NCBI RefSeq assembly: GCF_003073045.1
Contig: NC_037590.1
Coordinates: 22,842,449-22,906,448 of the forward strand
Reading direction: 5' to 3'
Source: Pomacea canaliculata
Taxonomy: Eukaryota > Mollusca > Gastropoda > Architaenioglossa > Ampullariidae
DNA length: 64,000 nt
Shown here: piece after piece, positions 3,026-35,978 of the stretch
Layout of the letters: the number at the start of each line of letters is the position of its first letter
Position numbering within the stretch: the first letter of the stretch is position 1
The notes under the pieces: generated by a model
Seen by the model: only the letters and a program-made list of their open reading frames with translations
The model's database searches: none
What the model was told of the DNA's origin: nothing
Translations under genes and position numbers: made by a program

Positions 3026-6247
<3,222 letters not shown>

Positions 6248-12455: not shown

Positions 12456-15400
12456 ATGGTGACAGACAAAGCTTTGGTGCCAATGGCAGAAGGAAGTGAA
12501 ATTAAATACGATGTTATTGTCATCGGCGGGGGCATATCTGGTCTGACGACTGCCTTCCATCTCAAGAAAAGAGATCCCAAACTGAGGATAATTGTGCTAG
12601 AAGCGAAAGGTCACTGCCAGAAGCTGCTTTATATTGAAGTTTTACAACTTGACCGTGTATTCTAGTCACGAAATCAACTTTTTAAAGATAATATTTGACA
12701 GACTTCTTGAACTTTAAAAAAAAAACTGATGGTGAATGAAAGTCTCCTCGTCGACTGTGCTGTGACAAAACCTATCGTAAAAATGAACAAGATGCATTGT
12801 CATCTTACTTTGTTTGAAAGAGAATGAAACTTTATTAGAATGTTTCTGCATAAAATTATGATCTCATATGCAGCTATGGAAACATTTAAAAATATTCAGT
12901 CACATCCCCTTTCCAAGAAAAAAAATTAAATGACAGAGTAAACACACGTTTTGCGAGTGATTTTATGGGAGTTTATTACATATATAAATCATTCTTATTG
13001 ACAGAGTGTAACCAACACCGAAGTGTATGAATTTAAGTACAGAGGGTTTTAAATGATTCCTTAAACTAGTAATCAGTATTAGAAATGTGTTTTTTTTAAG
13101 ATCGTGTTGGAGGCCGCACTCAGACCATCTCACTCAAGTCGAAGGATGGAACAGACAAATGGGATATTGGCGGCCAGTGGGTTGGAAGGTGTGAATGAAA
13201 ATTAATTCAGTTTCACATTACTTATTTTTACCAATACTGGTGTCACAAAATTGTGGCATTTAGGAATTGTCTTTTTCCTCTTAATAACTCGTTTAAATTA
13301 GAGCAGCAAGGTAAATTTGTAAAATTCAAACACTAGGAATATATTCATGCGAATTGGAAATAAGATTCTATGTGATAGATTCTATTAAATTTAATGATAG
13401 TCTAGCAGCAAGAGGAAAGCCAGTGCAGTGGGATACTCAAGGTTCTGCAGCTAGGAAAAAGGCAAACATCTCCAGTTATTTTTCTGTTTTGATATGAACA
13501 GCTTTAGTGTTAGAGTTTTGTTGTGTGCAAAGATAAGAATAAGATGTTGTTTGTAGATTGTCTTATTTAATATTTTTGCATTGAATTTTGTTTTCATACA
13601 GCTTCATATTTTTATGTAGCTTAAGTCACCTAACTTCATTATCTTTTTTGCCAATCACTCAAGTGCTGTCTCTCTCTGTCATCAGTTGCGGGTATTTTTT
13701 TTTTTAAGGTGCCAACCTCATATTATGTCACTCCTGCTGGAGCTTGGTCTGGAAACCCACCCTCAGTATACAAAAGGAAAAAAAATCCAGCAGCTTTCTG
13801 GGCCTAATATATCCACATTCAGTGGTGATCTACCTTCTCTGTCAATCTTTGCGCTGATAGACCTCCATCATTTCATCTCAAAGGTTAGCATGATGACCAT
13901 AAAGAAATACATGCCACTCTTTAAATGCTTAATACCAGCAAAAGGTGTTTAAAGGGATCATACTTGGACATTTATTTATATCTTTATGCATGCCACAGAT
14001 TAACCAATGCATGCATTAAGGGTGTTGTTTGCATGAATTTATGTTGGGTTTTAAGGTGGAAAGCTGCAGAAAGCTTGTGAAATCAGATGATCCTTATGCA
14101 TGCCCCTTGGCAGAAGAATGGGACTCTATCTCAGCAGAGCACTTTATTCAAGAAAACTGTTTTACACAAGGTTAGTAGACAAGCAAGCATACATTATGTC
14201 TTGTATGTAGAACTTGAAATTGGTTGGTGTGCATTTCTTTTATTGTGTGCTGAATTTGACGCTATCGTTACATTTTTTAAAAATTTGGGACACTCAATGT
14301 TAAAGCATAGATACATAAAAATGTATATGAAACTACTCTTTACCACCTTTTAATTCCATTACAAACTTTCAAGCAATATGGTTCTCCTTTTAGGAAAGTA
14401 GGAAACTGTAATGTTTGTTGCTGCTTTATCTGTTCTACTGTTATTGTAGGTGCTATTGATGCAGTGAATATTGCCAACAGAACAATATTTGGAACAGAGT
14501 CGTCCCAGCTTTCTTGTCTCTTTTGGTTTGCATACATCAGTGCTGCAGATGGAATTATTAAGCTCTGTGAAGCTAAAGAATTCACAGCACAGGAAAGTAC
14601 AATCAAAGTGAGAAAAGTTGTGATTTTTTTCTCTGTCTGATTCTCACTTTTTTTTTAACATACTGCTTAGTATATCAGTTATTATATTATCCACGTCCAT
14701 TATAGAAGAAGGAAGTTTGAAAAACTAAAACAACTCTCTAAAATATCATAATTCTTATTCTTGTGAATGTGGCATGCATGGGCTCTCTGTTTTTATATTT
14801 CTATATTTTATATAAAATGTAATAATTATGCATGTCTTTCTTATGAGCATATTTTGTGGATGTCTTGTTTTTATTATTTTATGATAACTAGTGTTAATTA
14901 TTGTTAGGAGCTCAAGAATGTATTTATTTTTTGTTAATGAAATAAAGTTAACGGGCTTGTATCTGCTGTGTTATATTTAAAGGGGGGTGCACAGAAGATT
15001 TCTGAACTGCTAGCGGAACGCATTGGCCACAAAAACATACTACTTCAGCAACCTGTAGTCCATATTGAACAGGTATTTCTTCAGTAAAGCATTGCATATT
15101 ATATTGCATTTTAAAGAAAAAGTGTACGTTTGATTATATTAGCACACATTAATCTTGTAAATTACTTAATGTCAGGCAAATATGTGTGGAGTAAATAATA
15201 CACAAAACAAAAATGCAATAGTTTTCTTGCAGGACTAGGAATTAAGCTAGAACTTAATATTATGATATATACATCCATTGCTACTTAGAATGCTTGAGTC
15301 ATTGACAGTTGCATGATTAACAGCAGTAGGATATCCATGGGCTAATCTGCTGGGTTTTACAACTTCAGGGCCAAGAGAAAAAACAATAACTGTCTTTTTT

Positions 15401-18217
15401 ATATAGACTTGCAAGGATGTAAAGGTTACAACAAAGACAGGAGAAACATACATTGCAAAATATGCTGTGTCTGCTATGCCTCCACCCCTTTTAGGTGAGC
15501 CTGAATATGTTCCCCTAACTTATGCTAGATGAGAATTCATAATAATCATGGACAAATGTTTTATAATGTGCCTGTTTTGTTATCTCAGTTCAAATTTTTA
15601 GAGGTAAGGTGTCAAAGACCATTATTTCTTAACTTTGTCTTGGCCAAGAAAAGTCTTGAGAGATTTTTGGGTAAATTGCGATTTGTTTTTTTCTGAAGGA
15701 ATGTCCAAGCATAAAGGACACATACTTAGTATTTTTGAAAAGGTATTTAGCAACAAACCAGGATGGTTGTTTGTGTGTTACAGACTTCATCACCTTCAGC
15801 CCTTCCCTGCCTGAATTTAAAAGAGAAATGTGCAAAAGAATGACACTTGGCAATTACACCAAAATCATCATTACATACCAAGAGGTAGTTGTGTCGCCAT
15901 AGTTACATGATACTTGAGGAAGCTTTTTTAGAAGTATACCTTAGAATTTTATTTGATTATTTTCTTTTTCACATTTTAAAGCTGAAAGAAAGGATGCTTT
16001 TAACATCATAGGATACAGTCTTGAAGTGTATTCACTCCGTAAATTACACCATAATATTTTGAGCTTGTGTGTGCATTGCCAGTATTGGTATCTATATGTA
16101 GCTAACTCACAATTATCTTCTTTGCCGATTCAGATTTTCCATAGTAAAAGTAACTGTCTTGAAGTATGCTGAGAAGATTTTGAAATATGCATGGTTCATG
16201 GACAATTTGAAAAGCAAATTATTTAGCCTGCTGTCAAGTATATTTGCTGAAGATATGTATAGACTTGAAATTTAAAAGTTAGCTGTGGTGAACTGATGTT
16301 TCTGTTGATATGCAGGCATTCTGGCGCAAAGCAGGTTTCTCAGGTGAGGTTATTACAAATGGAGGGATTACTGCTGTGCCTAACTGCTCTTCGGGTCCAC
16401 TTTGTATAATATATGATGCCTCTCTCTACAATAACAGCCCTGCTCTTCTAGGATTCATTGCTGGTGATGTAAAAGTAGAGTGGACTCAGCAATCAGTGAG
16501 TATTAATACAAATATCAGTCTTTAAATATTACTTATGATAGTTGCTGACACTTGGAATTTTGCCTCTACCCCTGTCAAAGCATAATATTCAGTACTACAG
16601 CTGTTGCTTGTTTCTTAAATTCATTGGGGTTCCCCCCCCCCTCTACAAGGCAAAAATATTTTCCTCAAATTAAATTTTTCTAAGTTGAGAGAGATCTTGT
16701 GTAAGCTATTATTTGTTTATCTAAAACTTTCTCATTTTTTAAAATTTCTTTTGTTAATTTTGTTCAAAGCCAGAGACACGAAAAAGAGCAGTTTTAGATC
16801 AAGCTGCAGATTACTTTGGGAAGGAGGTGTACAGTTACATTGACTACTTTGAGAAGGACTGGAACCAGGAACCATATTCACATGGTGCACCAGTCTGCAT
16901 TATGCCTGTTGGCAGCATGCCCGTCTTTTCAAAAGCCATCCGACAACCCTTTGAAAGGTTCCTTTGATAAACATTTGTGGCATATAGTGTTTAAGAGAAT
17001 AATTATGTTAAGATGTGGTGATATACATATATGTTTCTGGAGATATAAATGGAATAGCTGTTATGCAGGGTCTGTTTGATAATGTCTCCTGTAACTTGCA
17101 GTTAGGTGACCATTATGTTCACACCTGTGAAATTTTTTGAGAGCAAATTTTAAAAAAAAATATTTGTAGTTAAAATGAGAAAAACTATGCATAACAATTT
17201 GTTGCTGTTGTTGTAAGAGTCATCTTCACAATAGCTATCACCTTAGATCAGGGCAAAGTTTTCTTTCTGCGGGCTGGTCACAAAATTCTAAGCTATGTAG
17301 TGGGCCAGTAAAATACCAAAAACCCACACCAGGTGACTGCACAACAAATCTAGTGATAATTGAATGGACAACAAATTAGTATATAATGGCATTCACTTAC
17401 TGAATTTATTGTGTAAAGTGAAGCTGTTTGAATTTGCTCATAATAAAACTTTAAAACCAACCTTTCGTTTAAAGGCAGCCGCCCCCAATACTCCCTAATG
17501 ACTCCAGCAGAGTTATCTTTGTTTTTTGCCTGTGTTACAATGTTACAGACTGCTGACTTCTAACACTGCTGTACTTGATAAACTAAATTTCAATCAAATT
17601 ATCCTAGGCTGAATTAAAAAAAGAAAACAATTGCACTTCACATTTTGGCAGACAGGCAGGTCCAAAGACATCCATGGGATGTACTTTTTCCACTCCTGCC
17701 TTAGACTAATAAAACTGCTGTCACCAATATTACCTAATAAGATTCGTCACTTTCACAGCTGCCCTATTCTTATGCATTAGTGCTGTTCTCATGTTCATCA
17801 TCATTGTCAGCATCATAGTTTGACTAACACGCTATAGTTAATGTGTTTACTTTTTATTACAGTGACTAATGCAAGTTTCTTTTTCTGCAAAAACCTCACA
17901 GGTTGCATTTTGCGGGGACAGAAACAGCTACCTCCTGGTGTGGTTACATGAATGGTGCAGTGCAGGCAGGTTTGAGGGCAGCAGCGGAGGTACTGGAGAA
18001 GCTAAGACCAGAGGTATTAATCAGTGAGGACTATGGTGCACTTCAAGGCTCAACTCTTGCCACCAGGCCGGCACAGGGACTCAGTAAACAGCGGTGGCTG
18101 AAGCAGCCACGCAGAAGTTTCATTGGAGCCTCATTCTTGAAGTGGACCATTGGTTTTGGTATCATGGTTGGCATCTTCATGATGGCAAAGAAAACTAAGT
18201 TCTATAGGTCATTTTGA
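12456..18217 (+). CDS. Monoamine oxidase-like flavoprotein A (no covalent-FAD cysteine)
   Basis: Eleven exons: 12456-12609, 13101-13188, 13709-13883, 14056-14170, 14450-14607, 14983-15072, 15407-15494, 15784-15884, 16316-16495, 16770-16957 and 17902-18217. They give 550 aa with every junction in phase. The N terminus [17 protein letters not shown] is the dinucleotide-binding fold, followed by DRVGGR and WDIGGQWVG. The C-terminal [19 protein letters not shown] is the FAD-binding end. A hydrophobic segment at about 524-541 followed by lysines is a tail anchor like that placing MAO in the outer mitochondrial membrane. Lys316 (NYTKII) matches the flavin-site lysine of MAO. Where MAO has covalent cysteine (SGGCY), this protein has HGAP, with Ala423; the nearest cysteine is three residues on. 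FAD is therefore expected to bind without the thioether. The substrate is unknown. The start ATG follows the transposon end directly. Confidence 0.88.
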
Positions 18218-18708
18218 TTTTGATGTTTAAAATACTGACAGGGGCAGTATGATGGTTAAACCATAGACGTCAAACGAAGTGTAGTATGCTTATGGAATAT
18301 TGACTACGTTTCTGTTTTTAAAATAATTTTTAAAAATGCTTCCCTTAGTCTGGTGTAAGCTCTTTTGAGACGGTTTTTCAATTTTTTGATTTTTAACGCC
18401 TTTATTTTACTTATTGAGGACATATTGTAATGGAAGATAATTTGTAGGTGAAGTGAATGCATGCATCATCGTTTTACATTTGTGATCTATTTATTTATGA
18501 TTTATATTTAACTGATTTAATGTTACAAGCAAGCATGTACATTCTATATTTTAAAAATAATTATAAAAATTCCCCTCTTCCTTCCCAAGTCTGATGTAAA
18601 CTCTATTGGGACACTTTATCAGTTTTGCAATTTTTGACCTTTTGATGCTTGTTTTTGTATTATTTTATTGTTGTAAAAAAATTTAATAATTAATCTTTCA
18701 AAACAGAG

Positions 18709-18714
18709 AATAAA
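18709..18714 (+). other. Poly(A) signal candidate for MAO-like A
   Basis: AATAAA about 490 bp after the stop. A second copy lies at 19035-19040. Either could end the transcript. Confidence 0.4.
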
Positions 18715-19356
18715 ATAACACTCTGAATGGATTTTTTAAAAATGCCAAAGTGTTCAGCATAGTTTTTTTTCCCCAATGGTGTTCCACACTATGATTCATG
18801 ACAATAAGTTATTGGTCATTTTTTTTTCTTGTAGAACAAAATTTATAGCTCTTATGTTTGGAGAGATGATCAGGTATAAGGTGGCACATGATTCATATGC
18901 ACTGCAAAAATATAGAATTGGATCAAAATAACAAAAATAAAAGCTGTTGTCTTCTGTTGGAACTAAAATACAAACCATTTTCTCATTGCACAAATGTTTG
19001 CATTTAACATGGAGAACTTGTAATGGACACATTAAATAAAATTACATGCTTTGAGATATAGTTGAAGTGTTTAATCATTTCAATCATCACACTCTCTGGT
19101 ACATGCTTGTCTGAGTTATAGAGGACTATCATCTAAGTCAGTCTCTTTAATCCTTTAGTGCTGACATCCTTCTTGTACTGACATTCCTCCTTCTCTGCTT
19201 TTTTTCCACACTGGGTCTACATTCAAAGCTCTCAAGTCTGGCCTCAGAATTCAACTTTTCACCAATTACTTTCATAACTTACATTAATACTTCCCCATCT
19301 TTATCCATATTTAACCAAGAAGTCATCCATATACTGTTAGCTAGAGTCTAGCTGTT

Positions 19357-19399
19357 TTGAGGCACTATGCTTCTCAAGGAGTACCAAGGTCTAACTACC
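19357..19399 (+). mobile_element. Ultra-short 3' end of a LINE, 43 bp, with target duplication
   Basis: The insert contains ACTATGCTTCTCAAGGAGTA, which matches the 3' terminus of the LINE family seen at 45646-46162, 41726-42128 and 50494-50835. It is flanked by the 10-bp direct repeat TCTAGCTGTT (19347-19356 and 19400-19409), as expected from target-primed reverse transcription that stopped almost at once. Confidence 0.65.
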
Positions 19400-19611
19400 T
19401 CTAGCTGTTGGGTTTATAGCCTCTAGGCCTACATGCACCTCCTTAATATTGTTTATACCTAAGTTTAGCTTTAGGGCTGTTTCAGCCCAGTCGATGGGGA
19501 CGATAAAAATATTTTCCTTTAACCATTTTTGAAAATATTAAATCTGTTATTTTGTGCCACCTGAAGTGTAATTGTGCTGAAACTATTTTCTAATTGGGGT
19601 TGGAAAATAGG

Positions 19612-19816
19612 TGACATTCTCCTATCTAGATACTAAAATAGTATTTGCTACACAAAAAAACTGCAAACAATTGTGAATATATTTTAGTAGTCTCACGAGA
19701 TGCCAGCTATTAAAGAAAGTTGACATTCTTCTAAGATAATACAAAGTATTTGCTACAGAAAATTGCAAACAATATATTTTAGTAGTCTCACAGGATGCCA
19801 GCTATTAAAGAAAGTT
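19612..19816 (+). repeat. Two-unit tandem duplication upstream of MAO-like B
   Basis: Units of about 109 and 96 bp (19612-19720 and 19721-19816) share TGACATTCT, GTATTTGCTACA, GCAAACAA, TTTTAGTAGTCTCAC and GATGCCAGCTATTAAAGAAA in the same order. The second unit ends about 360 bp before the MAO-like B start codon. The high identity suggests a recent local duplication. Confidence 0.8.
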
Positions 19817-20173
19817 TTATCGGTGTCTTTTCGCCCATCATTTGTGCAAATAAACGCAGTCTTAATTACCAAAGACAACAGTTGTTATTTGTTATTGCTA
19901 ATAGGAATAACTACTTCGCAAACTTCCAGATCCTGGGTCTGCAATTTGCGGGTCGCGCGGGTTTTGTTGTGGGTGGGACAGAAACAACTGACAGGGGCGT
20001 TAACTTTGAGTGATGACGTGATACCTTTCACGAGACCTCGCCAAGGTCGTGTCATGACCCCGTACGTGGATGCCTCTGAGCCGAAGGAAAACTTGCACAA
20101 AGAGTGAAAAAAACTGACATCCTTTGATGCTGCTTCGGAGGAAAAAAAAAGCGGGATGGGTGACTGACTGGTT

Positions 20174-23100
20174 ATGGTGACAAAACCAGAAATCATGGAG
20201 ACATACGATTGTGATGTATTGGTGATAGGCGCTGGGTTGTCGGGCCTATCATGCGCTTTGTATCTAACGGAGAAAGACAGAGGCTTGAAGTTGATGGTAT
20301 TGGAAGCAAAAGGTGACCGAACATCTTCATGATTACTGTTTTTTTTTAATTAGCACATGTGGGTGTAAAATAAGCTATCTCAGTTTTTTTCTCCTGTGTC
20401 ATTCCAGATTGAGGTGTGTTTTTGTCTCCCCTTTGGATAGTACATAAAAGCTTTTGGGAGCATCTGTACATTCTGTCATAAATCAACACTGTTGCGTTTG
20501 CATGTGTATGTTTTTGTCAGTGTTTCACACGCAATACATCGAGAGAACATTAAAAGTCATCGTTCAGGTCCAAATACACATTCTTCCCCATTCACCTCTT
20601 TTTTTTCCTTTCACAATATGTTATAGTCTAAAGTCTGCATTGCATCATGATGGTGGTGATACCATGACGATTGATAATAATGAAGTTTGAGTAAATGAAT
20701 TAATCAGCTCTGATATGATTGTATCTAAAGTATATATTTACTGGTAGTTTAAAAATTCTATAGGGCATGTTTAAAATGTGCATATGCTTAATCACATTCT
20801 CCCATGCATACCCCCATCCCTCACCATTCACACAGTTACATGTTCAAACATTTCCAAGTTACCTCCTGCACTGTGTAGTTTATGTAGTAAAATGGTATGA
20901 AGATAATAAAATAGATATATGTTTGTAACATTAATGCTCATGAAGCATGAGATTGAAAGAGCTGTATGAACAGCAAGAAGCATAATGTGGAAATTTGTGA
21001 TTGCTTTAAGTAAATGTGTCACCATCTATTTGTTTATAACACCTTTACAAAGTCTTTTGTAGCACTCTTTGTATGTAATGAAATTCATCATTCATTCAAA
21101 ATTTAAACACTATATGTTCCCAGTTCATGTCCAGTATAGCATTTATTACCTTAAGAAAAATTCTCAACTTACACTAGCTTGCATAGCCTTGACAACAGGA
21201 AAATGTTTACCCTCTAACAGCAAAAACGGAATGAAACTGTTGAAAGATATTCTTTTAAATATGCTACTGCATGGATGCTGACATGTCTCTTTGTTTGCTG
21301 TCTGCTTTACTGATAGCAGTACTGTTTAAGGAACAGAATATCTTGTGGCAAAAGCTGCTTTGAAAGACTGATATAATTGTTTGAGCTGTTATGTTTACAA
21401 CTCTTCATAATAACACTTTTACACTTGCACGCATGTATTGCTAACAGATGTAGTGGTATTTTAAGTTAAATTTTAACTTAAATCATGTTGAGACTGGGTT
21501 GACCTAGAATGCAGCAGGCAGCAGATGTTTTTTTTTCTCTTTATTTTCAGGCATAGATCTTTAGTACTTTGACAGTGGAGTTAAAGTTCCAACTACTAAC
21601 ACTGCTTTGTGAAAGGATATAAACACTAGACTTTTGTTCATAGTTAGTGCACAGCAATGAAGTAATACAAATAACTTATATATATGTACAGATTAATTGA
21701 TATTTTGTAGTTAATATTTATTTAAATGAAAGCTGCTGAATTGTTAGTTGTGTTGTTCTTCCAAGTCCTCATTTAATACAATTTTAACAAAGCAGATGTA
21801 CTTGGAGAAAATCATTCTTTGGTTATTTTTGTTTCCCTGTTTACAGATAGAATTGGAGGACGTATACTTACTCAACAGCTAACAGCTGCTGATGGCACCA
21901 AGGATTTCTGGGACTTGGGAGGAGAATGGGTTGGAAGGTATGTTTACCGACAGTGAGATAATACATGATGGATATAAACTGAATGATTGTACATAGATAT
22001 GTGTATGATAAATTTCATTTTAGAAAATGGAGTAAATCTCACTAAACAAAAGAATAGTGATCAGACTTAATCCCAAAGAAAGTATACCACATTCCTGAAA
22101 TGTTTCATGGCTCTTTACCACCTTCCACAAACCCACAACCAAATCTCCCATTCTCTCCAAGTCAACAATATTACCATTCCTGTTTCTGAATTTGCTAAGA
22201 ACCTGGATATTGTATTCAACAACTCTTTGTCCGTTCATCAATTTTTATCCCATGCTGCTAAGTCACACTATTATCATCTAGCCTTGGTGATTGTATTATC
22301 CATATTTTTCAGCATGTTCAAAGCAATACCCATCTAATTTTCTGTAAGAATAAAGCTGATCACACCACTACTCTCTTTTCTGCACTCCACTGGCCCCCAA
22401 TTTCAAAACACACTAAGTCAATGTTTTTCTCTCAATGACTCTATCCCCATCTACCTGTCCAAGTTTCTCCATATTTACACACTGCCTTGTTCTCTTGCTT
22501 CACTTCTGCCCCTCTCAGGCTTTGCATTCCTCAGATCAAACATCTTACATTTAGTCCACATTCTTTTTTGTCTGTCTCTAGTCCTCTTACCATAAATGAA
22601 TTGCCACTCCATGTTTGCTGGAACCCTGGTTTCTCTTCTTTCAAAGTCTCTGAGCTAACTTTCTCTCCTCCCATAGTGTTTGCTTGTGTGTATGTGTAGG
22701 TAGACATGTAGGTATTCATGATACCTTATTATGAATCCCATCTTCTCTTCCTCCAAAAATAAGTAGTTTTATTCAAATACAAGATATCTTAACCTATAAT
22801 CAATTTATTTTCTTTTATTGACAAATTAGTACCTAATCTACAGGAAGACTCATTAAAAAACAGTAATAGTGTAATAATGTACTGGTCAGCATCAATATCT
22901 GATGTTAGGCTAGTCCTCTTTGCTTTATGCAAGTATTTAAGACAAAAGAGGTATATCCTACTGATGTAGATGTTCTTTATATGCATATGCAGGCCTCAGA
23001 TACACTTACGATACTTGCTGCATAAATTTGAGCTGGATACCTTCAACCCAACAAAACCTACAGGAAGCATTGTAATAAACTCTGCTCCACAACTTCCATG

Positions 23101-26100
23101 GCAGGCACGACTTGACATAGCTCAGTTCACATGGAAGGTAAAGTACATTTTAGGAAATTCTAGTAACCATAAATATCTCTATAGGAATCGGTCCTAGTGA
23201 AAATAAAGTAGAATCATCATGATCTCTTCACTTATCCCCTATCCCAAGAGTGGTAGTTATGGGCCCCTCTACCTTTACAATACCTATACCTTGTCTATGG
23301 ATACACATTCTTGGGATTTCTTTGGGCCAGACTTTCAATGGGAGGAAGGGCACTGCTTGTATTCTGGAGGTCTGTACTAGTTTGTGCATAGATATTTTTG
23401 CTGTATGTCTTTTTCATAGCTACTCTGAAGAATTGATACCCTATTATGTTGCATGTGTGCATGTGAGAGAACAGTTTAGACTGATAAAAAGATTGAAAAG
23501 GTGTGTTGGATAGAGAAAGCAACCATTGTTAACAGAGTTGTAAAAACAATTTACAGAGTGGGAATATTAGGGTGGACTTATTTTAGAACTTCTGATTTTA
23601 GCTTCAACGAATGCGGAAAAGACTAGCATGGATGGATCTGCAAAGTTCTGTTGAGGCTGTCACGTGGGATGGGGTTACGTTTGAGTCATTTTGTAAACAA
23701 AATCTTTGGACACAAGGTATGTATTTTTGCAAAATGTGATATAGTGTACATAGAAAAATAGCTCTTCGTATGCAAATGTGGCATAGTAGAAAGTTTTCAC
23801 CCCAGTTGGTATGATAGTCCTGTGGCACAATGGTTAGCACCTGTTACCAATACAGTTAAGGTTGGCTGTCCTGGGTTCAGCTCTCGTCTTGGGCACATTG
23901 CTCTTTCTCTGCATGTGGCATCTTTTTACAGGCCTGGCTGCCTTGCCATGATCTAGCTTTAGTTGCTGGTTTGGTCTAAAACACCAACCCTAACCCCTAC
24001 ACCGCAGATGGCTGTCCGAGTATATACAAAATTGCCATTCATATTGAGGCACTTTACAATCACAAAGGAGTTGAGGAGTGTGGAAAAGTGTGGCTGCTGT
24101 AGAATGATAATAATAAAAATTAACACAGCTCAATTCCATATCAACATATACATCATCATTTTTGCTTTTTTTCTCATGGTTAGATAGTTGAATGGTGATC
24201 AAGAACCCCTCACAATCATTTGCTTTCTTTGGGAGTTTTTTTTTAAAAAAGGAAGTTAATAGAACCGCATGTAGGAAAAACTTAACTTGGAAGGAGGATA
24301 AGAGTTTATGTGTATGTTGTGTGTGTAAGCTGAAGTGAAGAAGAATAATTTCAAACCTTCTGCTCAGTCAAGTAGGTAAAGTCATTGTTAAAATTTTCAA
24401 ATAATTTTGATGATATGCAAAGACTAAGCTACTCTGTAGAACGTTGTTCAATTATGACCACTAGTTACCTGTTTTCATTTTCATCTTAGTGTGTTTTTTT
24501 CCCACACAGCATCTTTCCTTTGTGTAGCTCATTATGTAAGTCCATAGTTACTGACCCCAGTCAGAAATACAACCAACCAGTAATGCAATCAGTTCTAGCA
24601 GAGTTAAATGTCATTCTACAATGCATAAGATCAATGAATTTTATTGCACTAAATAATTTTTAGGACTAGAGTCAATGCCAGTTGCTGATGGAGAACTGAA
24701 GTAGGTTGTTTTTGTGCACGTTTATACATTAGGATTGGTAATATTTTGAGTCATTTTATGCTTTTCTGCAGTTACTATCCTCTATACATTGCTAATAAAA
24801 GGGGCAGGTCAAGACTATTAAAAGTGCACATTTATTGATTAATAATGAGATTAAAACCAGATTAACCTTTAGCATTAAAACAAACTGATCATCTGCTGTA
24901 AACATAAACCAGCATAAGATGCGGAGTTTATTTCTTATCCAGAAGGATTATGACCTTCATTTGCATGCCACATGATACGCAGATATAAAGTACAAAATCT
25001 ACCATGGTTTCTACCAAAATCTACCATATCAGTGGGGTACAAATTATTTTCTTTCAGATGCCAAAGATCTTATTGAAGCAGCAACACGCTGCATGTTTGG
25101 ACTTGCTACCTCAGAGATGACACTTCTCTACTTCCTCATGTATGTGCAGTCAGCAGGGGGCATTGAGGTCTTCAGCAGGCCTGAGGAGTTCAGTGGCAGA
25201 GAGTGTAGAGTAAAGGCAAGTTGCCATTGTCCCTAATGTTGTTTCACTAGCTTCAATCCAGTTGGCATGCTAAATTCAAACAGATATTTATTTTGGTGGC
25301 TGGTTTGATAATTTTTTTTTTTTTGAGATAAATCCTACCAAGCAGTTTTTATTCAGTGTTTTTCGTTTTCTTTCTGATGTAGTTATTCAATTTTTGTGTC
25401 GTCTACTCTAGCTTCCATAATTAAGGTCTTAATTAAGTGTACTAAAAGTTGTTTCCTCTGGATTTTTTGTCTTCTTCTAGCATGTGTGATTGTCATAAGG
25501 GTACTGTTCTTCAAAGTTATATTGGATGAGAGATGCCAGCTTTCTTATCTGGTTTTTTTGGTTTGTTTTCATATTTCTGTTTAAGTACATGAAACATCTC
25601 CTTAACAGTATCATTATGTACATCATTCAGATACTCGGGACCACATGAAATTTAAACATTTTTAAAAGTCACAAAAAAGAACTAACAGTGATAAAAGAAC
25701 AAATGAAAGCTGTAATAAGTTCAAGCTATGCAGAAATGAACTGTTCTAACCTTGTTCCTTCCTGTCAAGGCATTTTCTCTCTTAAAGAAATTAGATATCT
25801 TCAATGGCTTTTCAAAAATTTTATTTTTTGGACACATAGTTACACCAAAAGCATGTCAATCTTGTATAGTAACAGATTTCCATCATTTTATTTTGGAACT
25901 AGGTGATTATACAAGACACAGATTTCTTTGTTTCCCTCTTCGTAGGTTTTATAATTTCATGAGTTGGTAAAAGTCAATGGGTTTACATTCCTATCATGGT
26001 GGCAAGTTAAGCAAGCTTTGTAATCCTGGTGAGATGATGAATTTAGTGGTGGTGGAAAGAGATGGTGATTTTTGCACCCTTCAGTGTTGAAATCAGTCTC

Positions 26101-29100
26101 TGCAGAATGTGAAATATTCCTGGTTATGTAACAACTCTGCTGTGGATTTTGGAATTTTGGGGGACTTCCATGTCACTCTCACTTATCATTTTCATTAGCT
26201 ATGTGCTGACCCACAATTTATTTGTGTTTCTCTGCAGGTGGATCTGAGTCACTAAAGTCTCATTCTCCAGAATTGTATGCTTCTTTTGGGACTAAACTTA
26301 TTTCTAAGACTTCTAATGCTTCTTTCACGTTAAGCAGCTTGCATGATCTAGACACCTCTTTTTTGCAAAAAGAGAAAGAGATATTTGGAAAATCTATACA
26401 TTCCCATTAACTATCCTCCTGTTTACTAGTTAAAGGACTGAATTCAGAATTGTTCAGGTAAAGATATGACAGTGTTTTGGCTCCTTTGCACACATTGCAC
26501 TTTTGCAAAATAAGGTATGGAGGTGGCAGGTGTATGCAGTGTTCTCTGTCAGTGTATTACATTGACTGTTGATCTGCATGAAACATAATCTTTTTTTGTG
26601 AATTATTTTGGTTCATCATTTTATGTGTTATATCTGTGTAAAACAGTGAAGTCTGCTTAATTATTGATATTGTTTTCTCATGTTATGGTTTTAGGGTGGC
26701 GTCCAGCAACTAGCTACGCACATGGTTCAGAAGATAGGAAAAAAGCATGTTAAACTGAATCAAGTAGTGACACATATTATACAGGTGAGAGTTTTCATTT
26801 GAAATTGAAACCAAGTAATGATATATGCAGGTGGGATAGGCATACTAAAATTATATAAAACACTCAATAGTAAATCAGTGAGGTTGAATTTTGATTTTTA
26901 TTATTCTGAAAAACATAATTTTGTTTCAAAGAAAGAAGTTGAACCAAAAACTGTATGCTTATTCAACTGCTCTTTGCAGATGGATGATCGTGTACGAGTG
27001 GTAACAGCTGGACGCCTCCAGGTGACCTGTCAAAGAGCAGTAATAGCTATCCCTCCACACCATGCAGGTTTGTTTTCATTTGAAGTGCAACCAAAATTTC
27101 TAGATTAACTGTTTAGTCTATTTAACATTATGTAAATCATTTATTAAGAATAACAAGAATTAAAGTTTGTTTATTGGCCAAATGACATTGCACTTGGAAT
27201 ATGACTTGATGATGAAAGAGACAGAAGAAAAGAATAATCAGGCCTATATACATCCGCACATGCTGCCTTTTTTCCGTGCTTGCTCCCTCTTCCACACTCC
27301 CTTTCCATCAGACACACACACACTGCCCATGCTGACGAGACATGACCCACAGGTCACAGAGTCAACCAAAACACAGGCTTTAATGACGCTTGGTCACCCA
27401 TAGGCATTGTACATGACCCTCACAGACTGCATAAAAGGATACATTCTGCTAACATGTTCATGATATGAGCTATGGCAGAGTTGAGGAAGGAGATTGCTTC
27501 AGCAAAGAAACTATATCTCAAACAGGAAGTTCTGGCCTGAACGAGTCTATACCAGATACCAGAGGGCATGAGACAGAACAGGCCTTCGGTGGGTGGGAAG
27601 CATCTGCCACAATCTTTGGTGCCTTGCACAGACTGTGCTGGGCATAGCTTGTGGGGTAATTCACATCCAATACATTGGCTAGCTGCATGCACCACCCGGT
27701 CGAGTAGGACTTTCTGCCATACCAGATAGTGACAGAGAATGTCAGTACACTTTCGATCACCGCTTAGTAAAACTGGACCAGAATGTCCCATCTTGTGCCA
27801 GATTTCTTTAGATGACAGAATGTAAATGCATTACTGGTCCTTTTTGATAGTGGAAACAACATTGACTTCCCAGTTCAGATCAATGGAGATAATGGAATCC
27901 AGAAATATAAAGTGGTTGACCGGCTTGTTGGCCTCACTGTTGAGAGAGGCTCAACAGGACCTTTGTTTCTATGGATATCAACTCTTTGGTTTTAGAAACA
28001 TTGAGCTGCAGACTATGATAGCTGTACCAAGCTACCAGATGATCGACTTCTTGGTGGTACACAGACTCATTGGCAAATTTCACCATCTATAAGCTGAGAC
28101 ACAGTTGTTGGTGAAAAGGCAGAACAGGAATGGAGAGAGGATGTAACCTTGTAATGATCTTGTTAGAGAGGTGATCATTCACTCTTACTCTTTGGGGATG
28201 ATGCTTTAAGGAAATCAAGAAAGTCAATGGAAGCACATTGACCAGGAGAGACTAAACTCTGAGAGCTTTTCAAAGAGTTTCTGCAGAATGATGGTGTTGA
28301 ATGAAGAGCTGTAGGCTACAAAGAGGAGGTGAGCATAGTAGCGAGGGGATTCAAGATGCTAGAGCATACACCTTTCTTGTACTTTCTGTATATCATGAAT
28401 GCATTCATGCACAGAAAAAGCTTTCCATAAATTTATTTAGTTTCATCCATGAGCTAGCTTCATTCTTATTCTTTTTTCAGCTGCTATAAATGTGATGCCA
28501 TCACTACCATCCACTAAACTAGCTTTGCTGAAAAGTGTTCCACTGGCATTTTTAGTGAAGTTTGCAGTTACTTTTGATGAGGTATGCTTTTGTCGTGCAT
28601 CTATGGCAGTGAAATTGTATACACCATTGAAAGGAAGATTTATCTGATTGAGAGATGATAGTTTGCAAAATGAATTTGATCATTTTTTTAAATGGCTAAT
28701 CAGATAAATAAGCCATCTTAAAATTTTCTTTTATTGAATCATCATTTTTACAAGAGTTCTTGGTTGTCTTGATTCTCACAATAGTTTTATGTGTGAGATG
28801 GTGAGGGGTGTGTCTGTGCCTATGCATGCACACATCTCCTTTTATGTTTCATGTTTTAGATCCCATCATTGTTTTGCATATTGAATTTTGTAATTACTGA
28901 TATCTGGTGCAGGCATTTTGGGGATCTGAGAGTGGAGGAACCATGTACTATGGCTTCCAGTCTGTCCTGGAAGATGAAAACCGTGGACCGGTGGGCATTG
29001 TTTATGATGCAACGTCTGCAAGAGGGAATCCTGCACTTGCTGGCTTTATATCATCACCTGAAGGCTTTGAGAATGATGTAGGCATGCCTACATACAACAT

Positions 29101-31133
29101 ACAAATACAACATTTGTTCACATCATTCTGTATATATTAGCGTTACTCTTTTTTGTGAGTAAAACTTGTAATTGCCTAATGAACAAGTGAATCAGTGCAC
29201 AGACTGGATTAACTTCTTCTTGATCCTATTCGCCCTCAGTGGAGCATAGGGCTGCAACCACATCCCGCCATCGGGCCCGGTTCTGGGCGTCCCTTTCCAG
29301 TTGGGAAGACTGGATTAACAATGATTGCTAATGGTCAATACAATGTTGCATGTTTACAGTTGACCATATGTTCATATTACAGCTTCTACAGCCTCTGATG
29401 AATTTGTTAGTACTTTTTGGTCTCTAATGCAGATTTTAAAAGACTTTTCCTGCTTATATTTTAAACCCACTATTTTGTTCACTCCGCCATCCTCTTCGTT
29501 CTTGTTGCAGCCTAGTCGACGTCAGCTGGCTATCCTGGACCTTCTAGAAGATGTTGTTGGATCTGGGGTGCGCAATTATGTTGACTTCTCCCAGCGGGAT
29601 TGGAGCCGTGAACCCTACAATGGCGGCTGTTTTCTCAAGTCTTTGATGCCTGGTACTACAAAATACTTTAACAATGTCTTACGGGAGCCTGTCGACAGGT
29701 TTGTTTGATCTAATCACATGGAGAAGATAGAAGATCTGTGCCGTATGTTATTCTTCAGTTTCCTAAATAAAACTTATGATAATACAGTAATATATCTGAT
29801 AATAGACATTTAAAATGTAATGAAAGGATCAAAATTATATATCTGTATTTAGATACTAAAGTTTACATACAGACTTGTTATACTGTTTGCTTTGGATACT
29901 AAAGAGAATTTTTAACCGGAGTATTGTATATCTATCATCAACATGCCTGCTAGTTGTTTTCTACCCGTTTTCACACCTCATTGTTTTCAAAGACTGATAG
30001 CACATTTTGAATTGACATGTACTAAGTGTAAGGAGTGCTTACAATTATGAGGTCATCATTAGATATTTGTGATTTATTTACCTTGGTGTGTGTAAAATTA
30101 CATAAGATGATTTTAAACATACCTGTCTTGTTTTTAGGCTGCATTTTGCTGGAACAGAAACAGCTACTGTGTGGTGTGGTTTCATGAACGGGGCAATACA
30201 GTCAGGCTTCAGGGCAGCCACAGAAGTGCGTGAATGAAAGCTTTATATTTCTAAAACAAGAAGTGCTCCTAAAACTTTATCAACAATGCCACTTCCATTG
30301 CATACAACAAAACTTAAAACACAATTTGTTTTGCTTAGGTTCTTACGACTAGGAAATATTTCCTAAAGTTCAAGTTTTAGAAATGCATACTAAGTACCTT
30401 TTTATTATGTGACCCATTCAGCGCAACATGATTGTTACGGTAGCCAAGATTGCTACCAGCCCCAGAAAGAATAACCTTTTACGCTGACCCCCTTCATGCA
30501 GGGAGGTGATGCTAAGTTTTTGATGGAAGAATGCAGCTAACACTGGAAGGAAGTTATGTCAAGGTATCAGGTGACCAGGAAAGCAAGGGTACCACCTTAA
30601 GATACAGAACCAGTTATTTTTTGGGGGGCTTGTGTCCATGGGTACCGTAATGATCATGCTGTGTTGACGAGGTCCACTAGCACATAAAGGTACAGTATAC
30701 ATAACTGAAACACGATGTCGTAGCTATCTGAAATATTGTATTCTTTTACTTGCAGAATGAATGTTTTTTCCCTGATATTAAAAAAAAAACCCATTTTTCA
30801 CAATAAGAGATGATGAAAAATGTCATAGTGCAGCAGTTGCAAGGGAATGGATTTTACTCCTGTTGATCTCAACCTTTTTGGTGTTTGCAGGTACTGTATC
30901 ATCTTCGTCCTCATGTGATTGCCTGCCCTGACCCACCACCAGACTGTAGCTTAAGTACAGAAGCCCCTGACTTTCCACCAGAACCAAATGCTCCATTGAA
31001 GTATGTGGGATATATAGCTTTTGGAGCTGGCCTGGCATCTTTGGCATTTTTTCTCTTGACATCAGATAAAGTTCCCAGATCAGGTTTTGCGAAGACTATT
31101 CGACTAGTATTTGATCAATTGAAATCAGATTAA
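20174..31133 (+). CDS. Monoamine oxidase-like flavoprotein B (covalent-FAD cysteine present)
   Basis: Twelve exons: 20174-20312, 21847-21937, 22993-23137, 23602-23716, 25058-25215, 26695-26784, 26980-27067, 28481-28581, 28913-29077, 29511-29698, 30138-30225 and 30891-31133. They give 536 aa, all in phase. [17 protein letters not shown] is the FAD fold, followed by DRIGGR and WDLGGEWVG. Lys302 (FLVKFAV) is the MAO flavin-site lysine. Cys404 in NGGCF matches the cysteine bound to FAD in [22 protein letters not shown] closes the FAD site. A hydrophobic stretch at about 494-513 is a likely tail anchor after a proline-rich linker. The two aromatic-cage tyrosines of MAO are both phenylalanine here (Phe405, Phe442). 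The fifth intron starts GCAAGT, a GC-AG intron. Exon lengths and phases match gene A almost throughout, so the two are tandem duplicates. The substrate is not predictable. Confidence 0.9.
22080..22690 (+). mobile_element. LINE reverse transcriptase C-terminal fragment in intron 2 of MAO-like B
   Basis: A broken reading frame shows LINE-type C-terminal motifs: [20 protein letters not shown] (compare 'vknLGv.lD..Ls'), then LHWPPI, then a stretch aligning with the 'LRs...l.iP..k....g.rSFs..aP.lWN.LPl.lr' end, here [18 protein letters not shown]. Frame changes show it is old. The exact ends were not found. The clade is not assigned, though CR1/L2-like elements have this ending. Confidence 0.65.
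23815..24000 (+). mobile_element. tRNA-derived SINE in intron 4 of MAO-like B
   Basis: TGGCACAATGG (23823-23833) fits the RNA polymerase III A box and GGTTCAGCTCT (23874-23884) the B box, at tRNA-like spacing. The tRNA-related head is followed by a body and a tail reading GCTGGTTTGGTCTAAAACAC. The same body and tail occur, split by a LINE, at 45611-45645 and 46163-46198. No clean target duplication was found. Confidence 0.7.
27170..28335 (-). mobile_element. LINE reverse transcriptase fragment, minus strand, in intron 7 of MAO-like B
   Basis: On the minus strand, positions about 28070-27960 read [20 protein letters not shown] followed by VSKTKELI, matching the RT segment after the catalytic FADD box of L2/Rex-like LINEs; the aspartates themselves are replaced (FANES). 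Further on, [19 protein letters not shown] matches their 'LLPSGRRYRSI..RT.R' terminus. The copy has several stops and is inactive. The 3' end is near 27170; the 5' end is only approximate. Confidence 0.7.
29214..29306 (-). mobile_element. 5'-truncated LINE 3' end with 13-bp target duplication
   Basis: 93 bp containing GGAGCATAGGGCTGCAACCA and the following CGGTTCTGGGCG block, the 3' end of the LINE family also present at 41726-42128 and 50494-50835. It is flanked by a perfect 13-bp repeat AGACTGGATTAAC (29201-29213 and 29307-29319) in intron 9 of MAO-like B. Confidence 0.8.
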
Positions 31134-32526
31134 CAGTGGTAGGAACTTAGGAGCATGTCAGTTTATCCTGTGATTGCTGCAAAATGTACAAGAGCTATTT
31201 TCTAATGATTCAGATACAGCTAAAGCTAATTGAAATCTTTTAAAGTGCAAGGTGTAATCATGAGCGATGAAAATATTTTCTTCACAGGCAGACACTGCAT
31301 CACGCACTGTTTAAAGCATCTTTTTTCTCTCTTAAAAGTTTCTCTCTTCACTTTCATGTAACATTCACTTTCTTTTCTTCCCCCCCCCCTCCTTTTTCTT
31401 GGTCAACCACAAGACCTTCGATTTCTTCCGATTACAGCCTTAGAGGGCAAAGGCAGAACACTAACCAGTTTCAGTGTTATGCAGTCCAGCATATTTCCCC
31501 CAGTTTATCCAGCTGTTGAATGGATTCCTGTGTAGGATAAGGAAACAAGTTTGATGGGGTTAAGTGCCATCCTCAAAAAAGAACTTGCCACAAGACAAGC
31601 TTTTTTCTAACACCTCACCTCCGCTGCTAACACACACACACAAATCGAATGTTACAGAACTACCTATACCTTAATAGAAGTATTATTCCAGCAGCGACAT
31701 TCAAGTTTATTATAATCAAGTTTTGATTGAAACAAGTTTCAGGTGCATTTTTGGGGGGATAAGTTTTATAAAGTTTTAGTAATCATGATTACTATTTTAC
31801 ATGACAAGTTGTTGTAAAATATGCCTCCCAGATGTTAATATTTGTACTTAAATGGCTTTTGCAGGTTCCTGAATATTACATGACAATTACATGATTGACC
31901 CATTCAACCCGATTTTGCTACAAAATCTAAATGTAATGGGTAACTGTTGAAATTGCCATGGTGTTTTTATCAGAATAGTGGTTGATAACTGCTGAAAGAA
32001 ATAAGGGCAGCAAAAATGAGTTGTGCCATCATTTGCCTGCGGTTTTTCTGGATGTGTGCCTCATATACAAATGGTTACATAGTATTTACAAGTCTCTTCT
32101 TTGCCATGTGTTTTTAAATGATGTAACAGCATGTATGTTTATGATATGAATGCTTGAGTGAAATGGATGCAAAATATTTATGCATTTTGAGTGACTTGTA
32201 AGATGTGATGAAGCTGCATTCAGAATCTAGTCTATGATCACCAACAGATCACTGCCTTCTAGTTGGAAGAAAGAAAGCAGCATTTGAATGTTATGATCAG
32301 ATGTAGCAAAGCCATAGAAGCAGAATGTGATGACTCAAAATTCTTTCAAAGTGGACAATAATGTGCAGCTTGTAATTATCAGGTGCTATGCACTTTGTGT
32401 AGTTCTTAAAAGCTCTCTTTCCCTTACCCACCACCTCTGGTGTAATTCTAGCAGATGTAGAGCCCATTAGGTGAGATAAATCTGTGCCCTATTGGAAAGT
32501 GATTCTGGGTTGTGATAGTGCCTATA
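31134..32526. other. 3' flank of MAO-like B, no gene seen
   Basis: AT-rich sequence with a C run near 31381 and a CA repeat near 31630. No coding exon was recognised. It probably includes the MAO-like B 3' UTR, but no AATAAA was found close to the stop. Confidence 0.5.
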
Positions 32527-33025
32527 CAGGTAGTCCTCGGGTTACGGTGGTCTCGAGTTAGGTCGTTTCGTGGTTACGACGCTTTATACCATGCTCATTC
32601 CGACTTGCGAGGTTTAGCATCGTAAGTCGAACTGTGCGTGCGCCTCATTCCACGTGCGGCGGAAGTCATAAGGCAATCTGAGAAGGGGAAACAGCAACAG
32701 AAATTGGCAGGTCATTAGGACTTAGTCGTTCGACTGTCGCTACGATTAGCAAGGATAAAGATCGCATCCTTGAACACGTGACAGGATCTGCTCCTATGAC
32801 AGCGACAGTGATAACAAAGCGTACTGTACTGCACAATATTGTACTGTACTTATGTTTATTGATAATTATGTAGGGTACTGTGTTAGGATAGGCTAAGTGT
32901 TTGCAGAATTGCAGTACTGTACTGTTATTATGGTACAGTACTGTATAACGTATGATCCGACTTACGTCGAAATTCGGTTTACGACGCGTAAGAACGGATC
33001 AACGTTGTAAGTCGAGGACTACCTG
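32527..33025 (+). mobile_element. Tigger/pogo-like MITE with transposase remnant
   Basis: 499 bp between TA dinucleotides (32525-32526 and 33026-33027), the target duplication of Tc1/mariner/pogo transposons. The left end CAGGTAGTCCTCG is mirrored by CGAGGACTACCTG on the right. Positions 32697-32826 translate to TEIGRSLGLSRSTVATISKD, then KDRILEHVTGSAPMTATVIT, the N-terminal helix-turn-helix of Tigger transposases. The catalytic domain is gone, so it is an internally deleted, non-autonomous derivative. GTACTGTAC motifs fill the right half. Confidence 0.85.
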
Positions 33026-35978
33026 TAATTTTTTTTTTTTAAACAAATCTTTAAATTATTTTTTAAAGCCACAATAATTTCAATGGGCATCTGGAACAGA
33101 TATGGCAATTATTACATATTGTAAAGAGAGGCTTTACATTTTTACATCAGATCTTTTATGTGTTGATGACTATTTGAAGCAGCTTATATATATTACTTAA
33201 AGTTTTAAACTTTTATTTTGATATATCCATGACTATACCATAATAGTGACAGGTTTATTTATATAAATATATGTTAACTATTTCTTTAGGATAAAATTGC
33301 ATGTGCAGCTGTATCTCCTGGTTTGATTTGAGGAAATTTTTAGCTGTATGTTGAAAAATCTTTCAGATAATTATGCACTTCAAGCAGTTAAACGATGGCA
33401 AGAAATATTTTCAGTCCATTAGTTTGTTCATATCATCTGAATATGAATATTTACAGAGTGATTTTCAGTGAATGTTAAAATAAATGGATGCCTATGGAAG
33501 AGTCATGTGATAGTCATTTATAGGTCAATGTTCTCTGAAGAACAAAAAGAACCAAATGCCATTTTCACACAGAAAATCACCTATTCTAAACAGTATAAAA
33601 ATGGTGACTGCCTTTACATTAAAAACACATGATAAAGAATCAAAAGACATAATGAAATGGTTAAGACTGCTAATCCAGCTGTAGGCATTTGACATCTGTT
33701 GTGTGGACTGATTTGGGGTAATCAACTTCCATAGATTACACTTCTGTTAAAGGAATAGAAAACATTAACAACTGCTTTAAATCATCACCCATCTGATGCC
33801 AAATTTAATTTTTATTAGTCAAGAAAAGTCAAGGTTTGTGGTATTTCTACATCTAAATTACCCCTTTAGAAAATTTAAAATGATATTGCTACAAGATCTC
33901 CCATGTCTGATTTAACCCCACTCCAATTATTTATTAGGCATCTTTCTAATGCATAGTATTAATGAAGCACTTAAAATATGTAAATTGTTTCCACCTCTCT
34001 AATGCTTACTGCTGTTTCTGCCAGATGCCAGGACAAACATATTTCTATTGATTGATCTAAGAAATTTTTTCCTTTATCAAGCTAGAAATGCCAGTGGGTA
34101 GGGTAGCTTAATCAAGTATATCACAAATATAAATTAATACATCACAGTCTCATAAACATGGAAAAGCAATTTCCATGCCTTCCAAAACAGCCAGGAGTCG
34201 ATATCTTTTGCAGCAAACTCTAGTTAATAGTGGAAGAAAAAGGTCAGCTACAGCTCAGTTCTGCAAAGTCGAGAAAGCCCTTTTTTGGGCATAGATTTCG
34301 CACTTGCAACAACAAAATGAAACCAATTCAGAAAGAATTTCCACCTTAAATGCTTATTAATTGTGTAACACTGCGTTCTTAATGTAACACATCAGCCAAT
34401 TCTTTGACTACAAATTAAGAGTTTTGATCAAGATAAAAGGACCTAAAAGATGTTTAATTTTGCTGAGAAAAAAAGCAAACATAAATGTGAAAGGAGAAAT
34501 AAGTGGAGGATGCTGGTTTGTGAACAATGTCTTGGTTTACAGATAAAAACCGTGATAAAATGTATCTTTGAGCAACTTTCAACCAAAGGATTTCTCCATA
34601 ACATTTCCATGAAACACACACAACAATGAAAGAGCACAGACCACATTTGCCGCAGGAATAGTTTTTGAATACACCAATGGAAAATGAAAATAAGCACCAT
34701 CAATCACTTAACAAGTGACCAGTAGTTAAGACAAACATTTTAACACCAGCACAGTGTTTTGGTACCCCTTCCAAGTAATGTTAATGGTACGCCCAAATCC
34801 CAACACAAGCACAAAGATGGCATGCCACTCAAGCATATCTGCTGATCCTACAAAGCATATGTATGAAGTGCTATTTTGGTTTGTGCTGAGGACAACAGAA
34901 AAAGGTCAGTTAACACAATGTCCACTCCTTATTTTTCACTTCTTTCTAACTCCTTTTAAATATTATAAAAGCAGGACATTTGTAAGAATTTTTAAAAGCT
35001 AAAAATATATGAATATGAAAATGTACACATCAATGTCACATTTTAGACAAGGTCAGATGGCCACAACACATGTATCAAGGATCATGAACGAATCAGCTGT
35101 CCTGTCTAAAACTAGCATGCCAAAAAGGTGCAGCTGAGTTCCACCCACTCCTGCTCCCCAAACACCCAAACATTGATAGAAATCATCCAGCTACTGCAAA
35201 AATAAAATGGACAAACATGGTGATTTCATGCTTGATCTATGCTTGTGAATTTCTGGGTCATTTAAAAAATTTAAATCAGCAGCAGCTGGATGGATCAGTA
35301 GCAAATATCAGCTTAGCTAATGTATTGGAATGAAGTGTCCCACCAACATGCAGATAACAGCCAATATAGAAAAAACTTGAATCTATAGATGTACCAAAGT
35401 ATGATCATTAACTGACATTTACTGAAACAATGCAGTTGAAAGATATACATGCAGGATGGTTATAAACCCCTACTACTCTTTTTTTTACACAAAAAAAAAA
35501 AAAAATCACAAGACTGTGCTTTTAATATCCATCTATCTGCAGCTAAGAAATCCAATAATCCTATATTTCAAAATCAATTCTTAGCAAAAATATTTAAGAG
35601 GGAAAAAAATCTAGATTTTTCAATAGGGCATGAATTTAACATATGATGAAAAAAACCAGTATGTACATTCTTTAAATCTGAATCATTATAACCATGATTT
35701 TTAAAATACATTTTTCTTCTAGCAGTAAATTCTTCTTCTACAGTACAAGTCCTTTATTTGTTCCCTATACACCACTCACAAATATAACTGCTTAGTCTTG
35801 ATCACAGTAAATAACCATATTTAACATTTATCATTAAACAGATCAGTTTTATACTATAGCTAAAAATTAAAACAGCTAATACTGATCAAAATTCTACAGG
35901 CCATCAACAATGATAAATACCATAAGAAATGGACACCAATAACACCAAGTGTTACTATGTAAGCCTACAAACTACTCT
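33026..35978. other. Spacer between MAO-like B and ARL6IP1, probably with ARL6IP1 3' UTR
   Basis: No coding exon is seen on either strand. Part of it is likely the 3' UTR of the minus-strand ARL6IP1 gene. TTTATT at 35753-35758 (AATAAA on the minus strand) is one possible poly(A) signal. Confidence 0.45.

Follow-up and report, generated by a model that had tools for sequence, protein, structure and literature searches.

A tandem pair of amine oxidase-like genes

The window analysed here, a 64-kb stretch of DNA from the snail Pomacea canaliculata (contig NC_037590.1, positions 22,842,449 to 22,906,448; assembly size, 440,159,624 bases), contains two adjoining genes of the amine oxidase family, which we call A and B. 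The two differ at the position where the monoamine oxidases (MAOs) hold their flavin adenine dinucleotide (FAD) through a thioether cysteine. The gene models were built from splice sites and homology, and the coordinates are those of the window.

12456..18217, + strand: gene A, 11 coding exons, 550 amino acids, Pfam Amino_oxidase (splice model)
12456-12609, 13101-13188, 13709-13883, 14056-14170, 14450-14607, 14983-15072, + strand: gene A, exons 1-6
15407-15494, 15784-15884, 16316-16495, 16770-16957, 17902-18217, + strand: gene A, exons 7-11
20174..31133, + strand: gene B, 12 coding exons, 536 amino acids, Pfam Amino_oxidase (splice model)
20174-20312, 21847-21937, 22993-23137, 23602-23716, 25058-25215, 26695-26784, + strand: gene B, exons 1-6
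26980-27067, 28481-28581, 28913-29077, 29511-29698, 30138-30225, 30891-31133, + strand: gene B, exons 7-12
25216..25217, + strand: GC donor of B intron 5 (AAG/GCAAGT; splice model)

Both genes are real and intact. Their introns are GT-AG throughout, with the single exception of B intron 5, which is GC-AG, and each protein matches the whole of Pfam PF01593 (profile 1-443 of 443) with 208 bits for A and 183 bits for B, at a cut-off of 19.8. The interval 16770-29698, to which the original prediction was attached, spans only the stretch between the first base of A exon 10 and the last base of B exon 10. By sequence comparison, A and B are best described as tandem duplicates of each other, and as an old pair. 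Their identity is 38% across 472 aligned positions, all ten introns of A match introns of B in codon position and phase, and the two form a clade in every tree, with a support in the approximate likelihood-ratio test (SH-aLRT) of 99 (87 rows), 100/100 (90 rows), 99 (154 rows) and 100/99 (55 rows). The nonsynonymous divergence (dN) between them is 0.68, and synonymous sites are saturated, so that dS is not estimable.

The thioether site and its likeness to cyclohexylamine oxidases

An ungapped stretch of the alignment puts Ala423 of A and Cys404 of B opposite the thioether cysteine, the corresponding segment of human MAO-B being YSGGCYTTYFPPG. This assignment agrees with the original prediction, whose residue numbers for Cys404, Ala423, Lys316 and Cys426 are all correct. 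The codons concerned are as follows.

16887..16889, + strand: Ala423 of A, codon GCA, at the MAO thioether-cysteine position by alignment
16890..16892, + strand: Pro424 of A, at the MAO-B Tyr398 position
16896..16898, + strand: Cys426 of A, codon TGC, three residues beyond the thioether site and not aligned with the MAO cysteine
29628..29630, + strand: Cys404 of B, codon TGT, at the MAO thioether-cysteine position
29631..29633, + strand: Phe405 of B, codon TTT, at the MAO-B Tyr398 position
15855..15857, + strand: Tyr314 of A, aligned with Tyr321 of cyclohexylamine oxidase (CHAO; aromatic cage)
15861..15863, + strand: Lys316 of A, the flavin-site lysine
16454..16456, + strand: Phe370 of A, aligned with CHAO Phe368 and MAO-B Phe343
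17945..17947, + strand: Tyr461 of A, aligned with MAO-B Tyr435 and CHAO Tyr459

The motif at the site reads SHGAP in A and NGGCF in B, and the SGGCY of animal MAOs is found in neither. The flavin-site lysine (MAO-B Lys296) is retained as Lys316 in A, as had been claimed, and as Lys302 in B; this column is Lys in all 154 aligned rows. The Tyr398/Tyr435 cage of the MAOs is absent from both proteins, which have Pro424/Tyr461 (A) and Phe405/Phe442 (B) at these positions. The three CHAO cage positions are filled in B by Leu300, Phe354 and Phe442, as against Tyr314, Phe370 and Tyr461 in A. No alternative exon 10 encoding a cysteine emerged from the 64-kb window: once every exon of A and B had been masked, the exon-10 peptides gave chance matches only (best E 0.98 for A, 0.099 for B, 0.90 for the snail's own MAO1 and 0.42 for human MAO-B). 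These best matches all lie outside A introns 9 and 10, and the sole listed match inside them has an E of 12.

Since Ala occupies the site, A lacks a thioether of the MAO type, and its FAD is likely to be bound non-covalently. The non-covalent FAD proposed for A is in this respect reasonable, although the lability of the site among homologues tempers it. In B, which has the cysteine, a covalent link to the flavin is possible but not assured. The changed chemistry or substrate that had also been ascribed to A does not follow from the alanine alone, because the site varies widely among homologues and because a cysteine is itself insufficient for covalency. Human MAO-A with its thioether cysteine replaced is reportedly still active. 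Rhodococcus putrescine oxidase, whose bacterial entries 2yg3 to 2yg7 are among the PDB matches of A, is likewise reported to have an alanine at the site (Ala394), to bind FAD non-covalently and to have been redesigned with a cysteine. The polyamine oxidases belong to the same superfamily as A and B, albeit to a different subfamily that lies outside the sampling of our trees. In the plant, animal and fungal members, the MAO cysteine position is mostly Ser and sometimes Ala or others, and the plant AtPAO4-like enzymes have a cysteine there that is not linked to FAD (PMC7576179). Judged from homologues, covalent flavin is not required by the chemistry of the family.

A close parallel to the site of A is found in the bacterial cyclohexylamine oxidases. 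In the CHAO of Brevibacterium oxydans, the flavin and the residues Tyr321, Phe368 and Tyr459 enclose the substrate in a cage more open than that of MAO-B (PMC3608611). We take the PDB entry 4i58 to be this enzyme, because the numbering in the paper runs 17 ahead of that printed for 4i58 at seven residues (198, 199, 226, 321, 351, 368 and 459). The entry has Gly-Pro at the Cys-Tyr positions of the MAOs, where A has Ala423-Pro424; this feature, Ala or Gly followed by Pro, is absent in B. The motif of A also matches the GAPVTFMPTG of 6lqc and 8i6i, and G[AG]PV replaces GCYT in the bacterial cyclohexylamine oxidases (4i58 and 6lqc; 8i6i is named only amine oxidase) as it does in A. Furthermore, CHAO Tyr321, Phe368 and Tyr459 align with Tyr314, Phe370 and Tyr461 of A. 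An equation of CHAO Tyr321 with MAO-B Tyr326 was found to be wrong, as the CHAO residue sits two residues ahead of the lysine. Unlike the bacterial enzymes, A is a eukaryotic protein whose gene has introns and which is extended at the C terminus. The FAD of CHAO is presumably non-covalent.

The trees, from which the trait columns were excluded, point in the same direction. Their prokaryotic sample comprised 144 sequences: the best 80 of 535 relatives from a search with an alignment of A, B and MAOs, extracted by tblastn, and 64 from searches by phylum. The latter consisted of 5 loci found via L064, a locus from a Nevskia metagenome-assembled genome (6 of 398 genomes matched), 29 of the best 30 listed in a second search (55 of 396 genomes), a single locus in a third (2 of 297) and 29 of the best 30 listed in a fourth (65 of 377). 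Because similarity to A or L064 governed the choice of these rows, and only the best were kept, residue counts among them are biased. None of the bacterial sequences found exceeds about 40% identity to A, and a search of the L064 phylum with A as query, at E 1e-80, matched a single genome of 398, that of L064 itself. A and B group with L064, with L136 from Microbacterium and with three CHAO-type PDB chains, with supports of 97/82 (90 rows), 84 (154 rows) and 90/81 (55 rows). The group is not seen in the 87-row tree, which was sampled without the CHAO chains. The association of the pair with bacterial cyclohexylamine oxidases is thus moderately supported by the sequences. A placement of A with L064 apart from B was rejected in the approximately unbiased (AU) test (p 0.006).

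Several observations on the cage argue against too close a parallel. Only 3 of the 63 other rows with the proline have Tyr at the Tyr314 position, namely 4i58, L064 and a further row that falls outside the 35-row clade enclosing A and B (SH-aLRT 95); 6lqc and 8i6i have Leu there. An apparent coupling between the proline and a residue other than Val at the MAO-B 294 position rests on too few independent changes. The resemblance of A to the cyclohexylamine oxidases is accordingly strong in the motif but less so in the cage.

Our best explanation as a whole, to which we assign a probability of roughly 0.6, is that the pair is of old tandem origin and belongs to a lineage whose gene structure differs from that of the snail's conventional MAOs, with A as the more conservative, CHAO-like member and B as the faster-evolving one. 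A would bind FAD without a covalent bond and oxidise an amine through the chemistry usual in the family. Its active site would be laid out as in bacterial cyclohexylamine oxidase, with Ala-Pro in place of Cys-Tyr and a predicted cage of Tyr314, Phe370 and Tyr461 next to the invariant Lys316, and a hydrophobic tail at the C terminus may hold the protein in place. B carries Cys404 at the thioether site, adjoining Phe405.

Loss or gain of the cysteine, and the copy that changed

The original prediction had cast A as the member that changed. The comparisons suggest the opposite, in that B appears to be the copy that changed more: its terminal branch is longer than that of A in all four trees, and it departs from 6 of the 35 near-invariant columns, keeping 29, whereas A departs from one and keeps 34. 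The direction of change at the thioether site is a separate matter. This site is labile among the homologues, where the 144 prokaryotic rows have Cys in 90, Gly in 44, Ala in 9 and Asp in 1, and the tree of 154 rows requires at least 22 changes between Cys and other residues.

The ancestor of the pair may have had the covalent cysteine, which A then lost after the duplication, as had been proposed; we regard the chances of this as about even. The loss accords with the prevalence of Cys, which is the commonest state among the sampled relatives, and with two-state reconstructions that give Cys at the A/B ancestor 0.66, 0.64 (90 rows) and 0.68 (154 rows). In addition, of the 33 further members of the 35-row clade, 20 have Cys followed by Pro. 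However, when Cys, Gly and Ala are treated as three states, the value for Cys is 0.52 (90 rows) and 0.53 (154 rows), against 0.44 and 0.43 for Ala. The five rows grouped with A and B moreover have Ala in four cases and Gly in one, with no Cys, and the many changes at the site make its history hard to read. A loss in A as such is therefore not borne out, with ancestral values for Cys of only 0.52-0.68.

Conversely, the ancestor may have had GAPV, as the CHAO-type relatives do; A would then have kept it, and B would have gained Cys404 together with Phe405, perhaps re-evolving a thioether. We put this forward tentatively, at rather less than even odds. The lack of Cys in the five grouped rows fits it, as does the divergence of B in both conserved columns and end branch. 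The proline of A also appears ancestral on the 154-row tree (0.97), and Pro stands at the Tyr398 position in all 33 other rows of the enclosing clade, but the value falls to 0.27 in the 90-row tree. A gain in B is further opposed by the two-state reconstructions, by Cys-bearing rows that are equally near or nearer to A and B by path length in some trees, and by the similarity of the GGC of B to relatives with GGCPV. On the denser sampling, Pro424 would be retained in A and Phe405 would be a change in B, a polarity that rests on that denser sample. For the state before the duplication, Ala or Cys, the reconstructions lean slightly to Cys.

Relation to the conventional monoamine oxidases of the snail

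The snail has a second tandem pair, located on the minus strand of contig C14 at about 17.530-17.549 Mb (loci L053, L054 and L055), which consists of two MAO genes with SGGCY. Both cage tyrosines are present, 234 and 230 of 448 aligned positions are identical to human MAO-B, and the two are about 76% identical to each other. These models are homology-based, with the C-terminal exons seen only in part, and their exon sizes resemble those of vertebrate MAO. At C14 17547504-17547594, one MAO exon has 91 bases, compared with 92 in the neighbouring gene, and the reading frame is thereby broken in the assembly; the gene may be in decay, or the sequence may contain an error there. Because two conventional MAO genes lie on C14, a MAO role of the neurotransmitter type has other candidates in this snail than A and B.

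A and B might be ordinary animal MAO paralogues, drawn toward bacterial sequences in the trees by their divergence, but we consider this unlikely. They share with animal MAO-A and MAO-B the PF01593 fold, the flavin-site lysine, the AGTET flavin motif and possibly a C-terminal hydrophobic tail. The differences lie in the absence of the thioether cysteine and of Tyr398 in A, in the Phe/Phe cage that accompanies the cysteine of B, and in the exon plan. None of the ten introns of A coincides exactly with any of the 13 in the snail MAO1 model, and an insertion of 8 columns is common to A and B and absent from the MAOs. Identity between snail MAO1 and human MAO is 51-52%, whereas A reaches only 34-35% with the MAOs of either species. 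The MAOs fall outside the A/B-CHAO group in the 90-, 154- and 55-row trees, and a joint clade of A, B and MAO is absent from the best 87-, 90- and 154-row trees and excluded by the 7-row group of the 55-row tree.

A number of results nevertheless weigh in favour of common descent with the MAOs. The AU test does not reject a single clade of A, B and the snail and human MAOs (p 0.20 with 90 rows, 0.23 with the 55-row subset). In the 90-row tree the four MAOs join the A/B-CHAO group as the next larger group (98/86), although the 154-row tree places them elsewhere, away from it. One of the 11 introns of B coincides exactly with snail MAO1, being the last intron of each, and A intron 4 is two bases from a MAO1 intron. 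The top PDB matches of A are MAO-B chains, and in phmmer A scores 270 bits against human MAO-B (1gos) and 212 bits against the CHAO 4i58; B scores 195-215 bits against the MAOs of the PDB. Because of the gene structure and the best trees, we favour a separate origin from MAO, which these data do not prove.

The C-terminal tails were considered by hydropathy.

18122..18178, + strand: possible C-terminal membrane segment of A, residues 520-538, followed by a basic tail (hydropathy only)
31005..31061, + strand: possible C-terminal membrane segment of B, residues 495-513 (hydropathy only)

The Kyte-Doolittle maximum of the last 80 residues is 1.59 in A, against 1.41 elsewhere in the protein, and 1.87 in B, against 1.82. 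As internal stretches are almost equally hydrophobic, a membrane anchor such as the one that animal MAO-A and MAO-B have in the outer mitochondrial membrane is plausible and no more for both proteins. The tail anchor attributed to A thus has its C-terminal peak, but one that stands little above the interior and gives the claim weak support.

Two remaining explanations can be dealt with briefly. That A is catalytically dead, or that its gene is decaying or wrongly assembled, is scarcely credible in view of a frame open through 11 exons, GT-AG introns, the invariant lysine and the near-complete set of conserved columns, and in this the view that it is not a pseudogene holds. Covalent flavinylation of A through another residue is highly improbable as well: Cys426 lies three residues from the site, but forcing it onto the thioether position lowers the global BLOSUM62 score in all four comparisons, by 13 with MAO-B, 14 with MAO-A, 13 with snail MAO1 and 5 with B.

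The surroundings of the pair contain several other elements. Within B intron 7, a minus-strand open frame without a Pfam match occupies 27420-27830. Beyond the 3′ end of B lies a 0.5-kb element (32525-33027) with 21-base inverted ends that are 90% complementary, beginning and ending in TA, which resembles a remnant of a pogo/Tigger-type transposon. A second minus-strand frame without a Pfam match (41579-42049) looks by eye like the tail of a retroelement of the LINE (long interspersed nuclear element) type, and a reverse-transcriptase fragment is found at 45626-46051 (Pfam RVT_1, 25.7 bits, under the curated cut-off of 29.6). The upstream neighbour (5238-5585) has a phosphopantetheine-attachment domain and is probably a mitochondrial acyl carrier protein. 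Downstream are an RRM protein on the minus strand (46227-46763), with Ser-rich frames nearby and RNPS1-like by eye, and a protein of the lysine methyltransferase family (52984-53628), FAM86-like by eye.

Among the open-licence full-text papers listed in literature searches, judged by titles and the beginnings of abstracts, we recognised none on this pair or on mollusc MAO-like proteins. A difference of a single residue at the thioether site is common among bacterial homologues and would not surprise a specialist in flavoenzymes. The variation is of an ordinary kind; it is the arrangement that is interesting, since an adjoining pair in one animal that differs at precisely the flavin-anchor position provides a clean comparison. 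With two conventional MAO genes elsewhere in the genome, the pair also indicates that "MAO-like" genes of animals are not all MAOs. To our knowledge, it is an open question why MAO chains its flavin covalently while its relatives do without. As a speculation that we rate as improbable, animals, or at least this snail, may possess besides MAO another lineage of amine oxidases with a membrane tail, represented by A and B, with an active site of the bacterial CHAO type and unanchored FAD, in which B would have re-evolved the cysteine independently of MAO. If this were true, the pair would be a natural experiment on why the MAOs chain their flavin.

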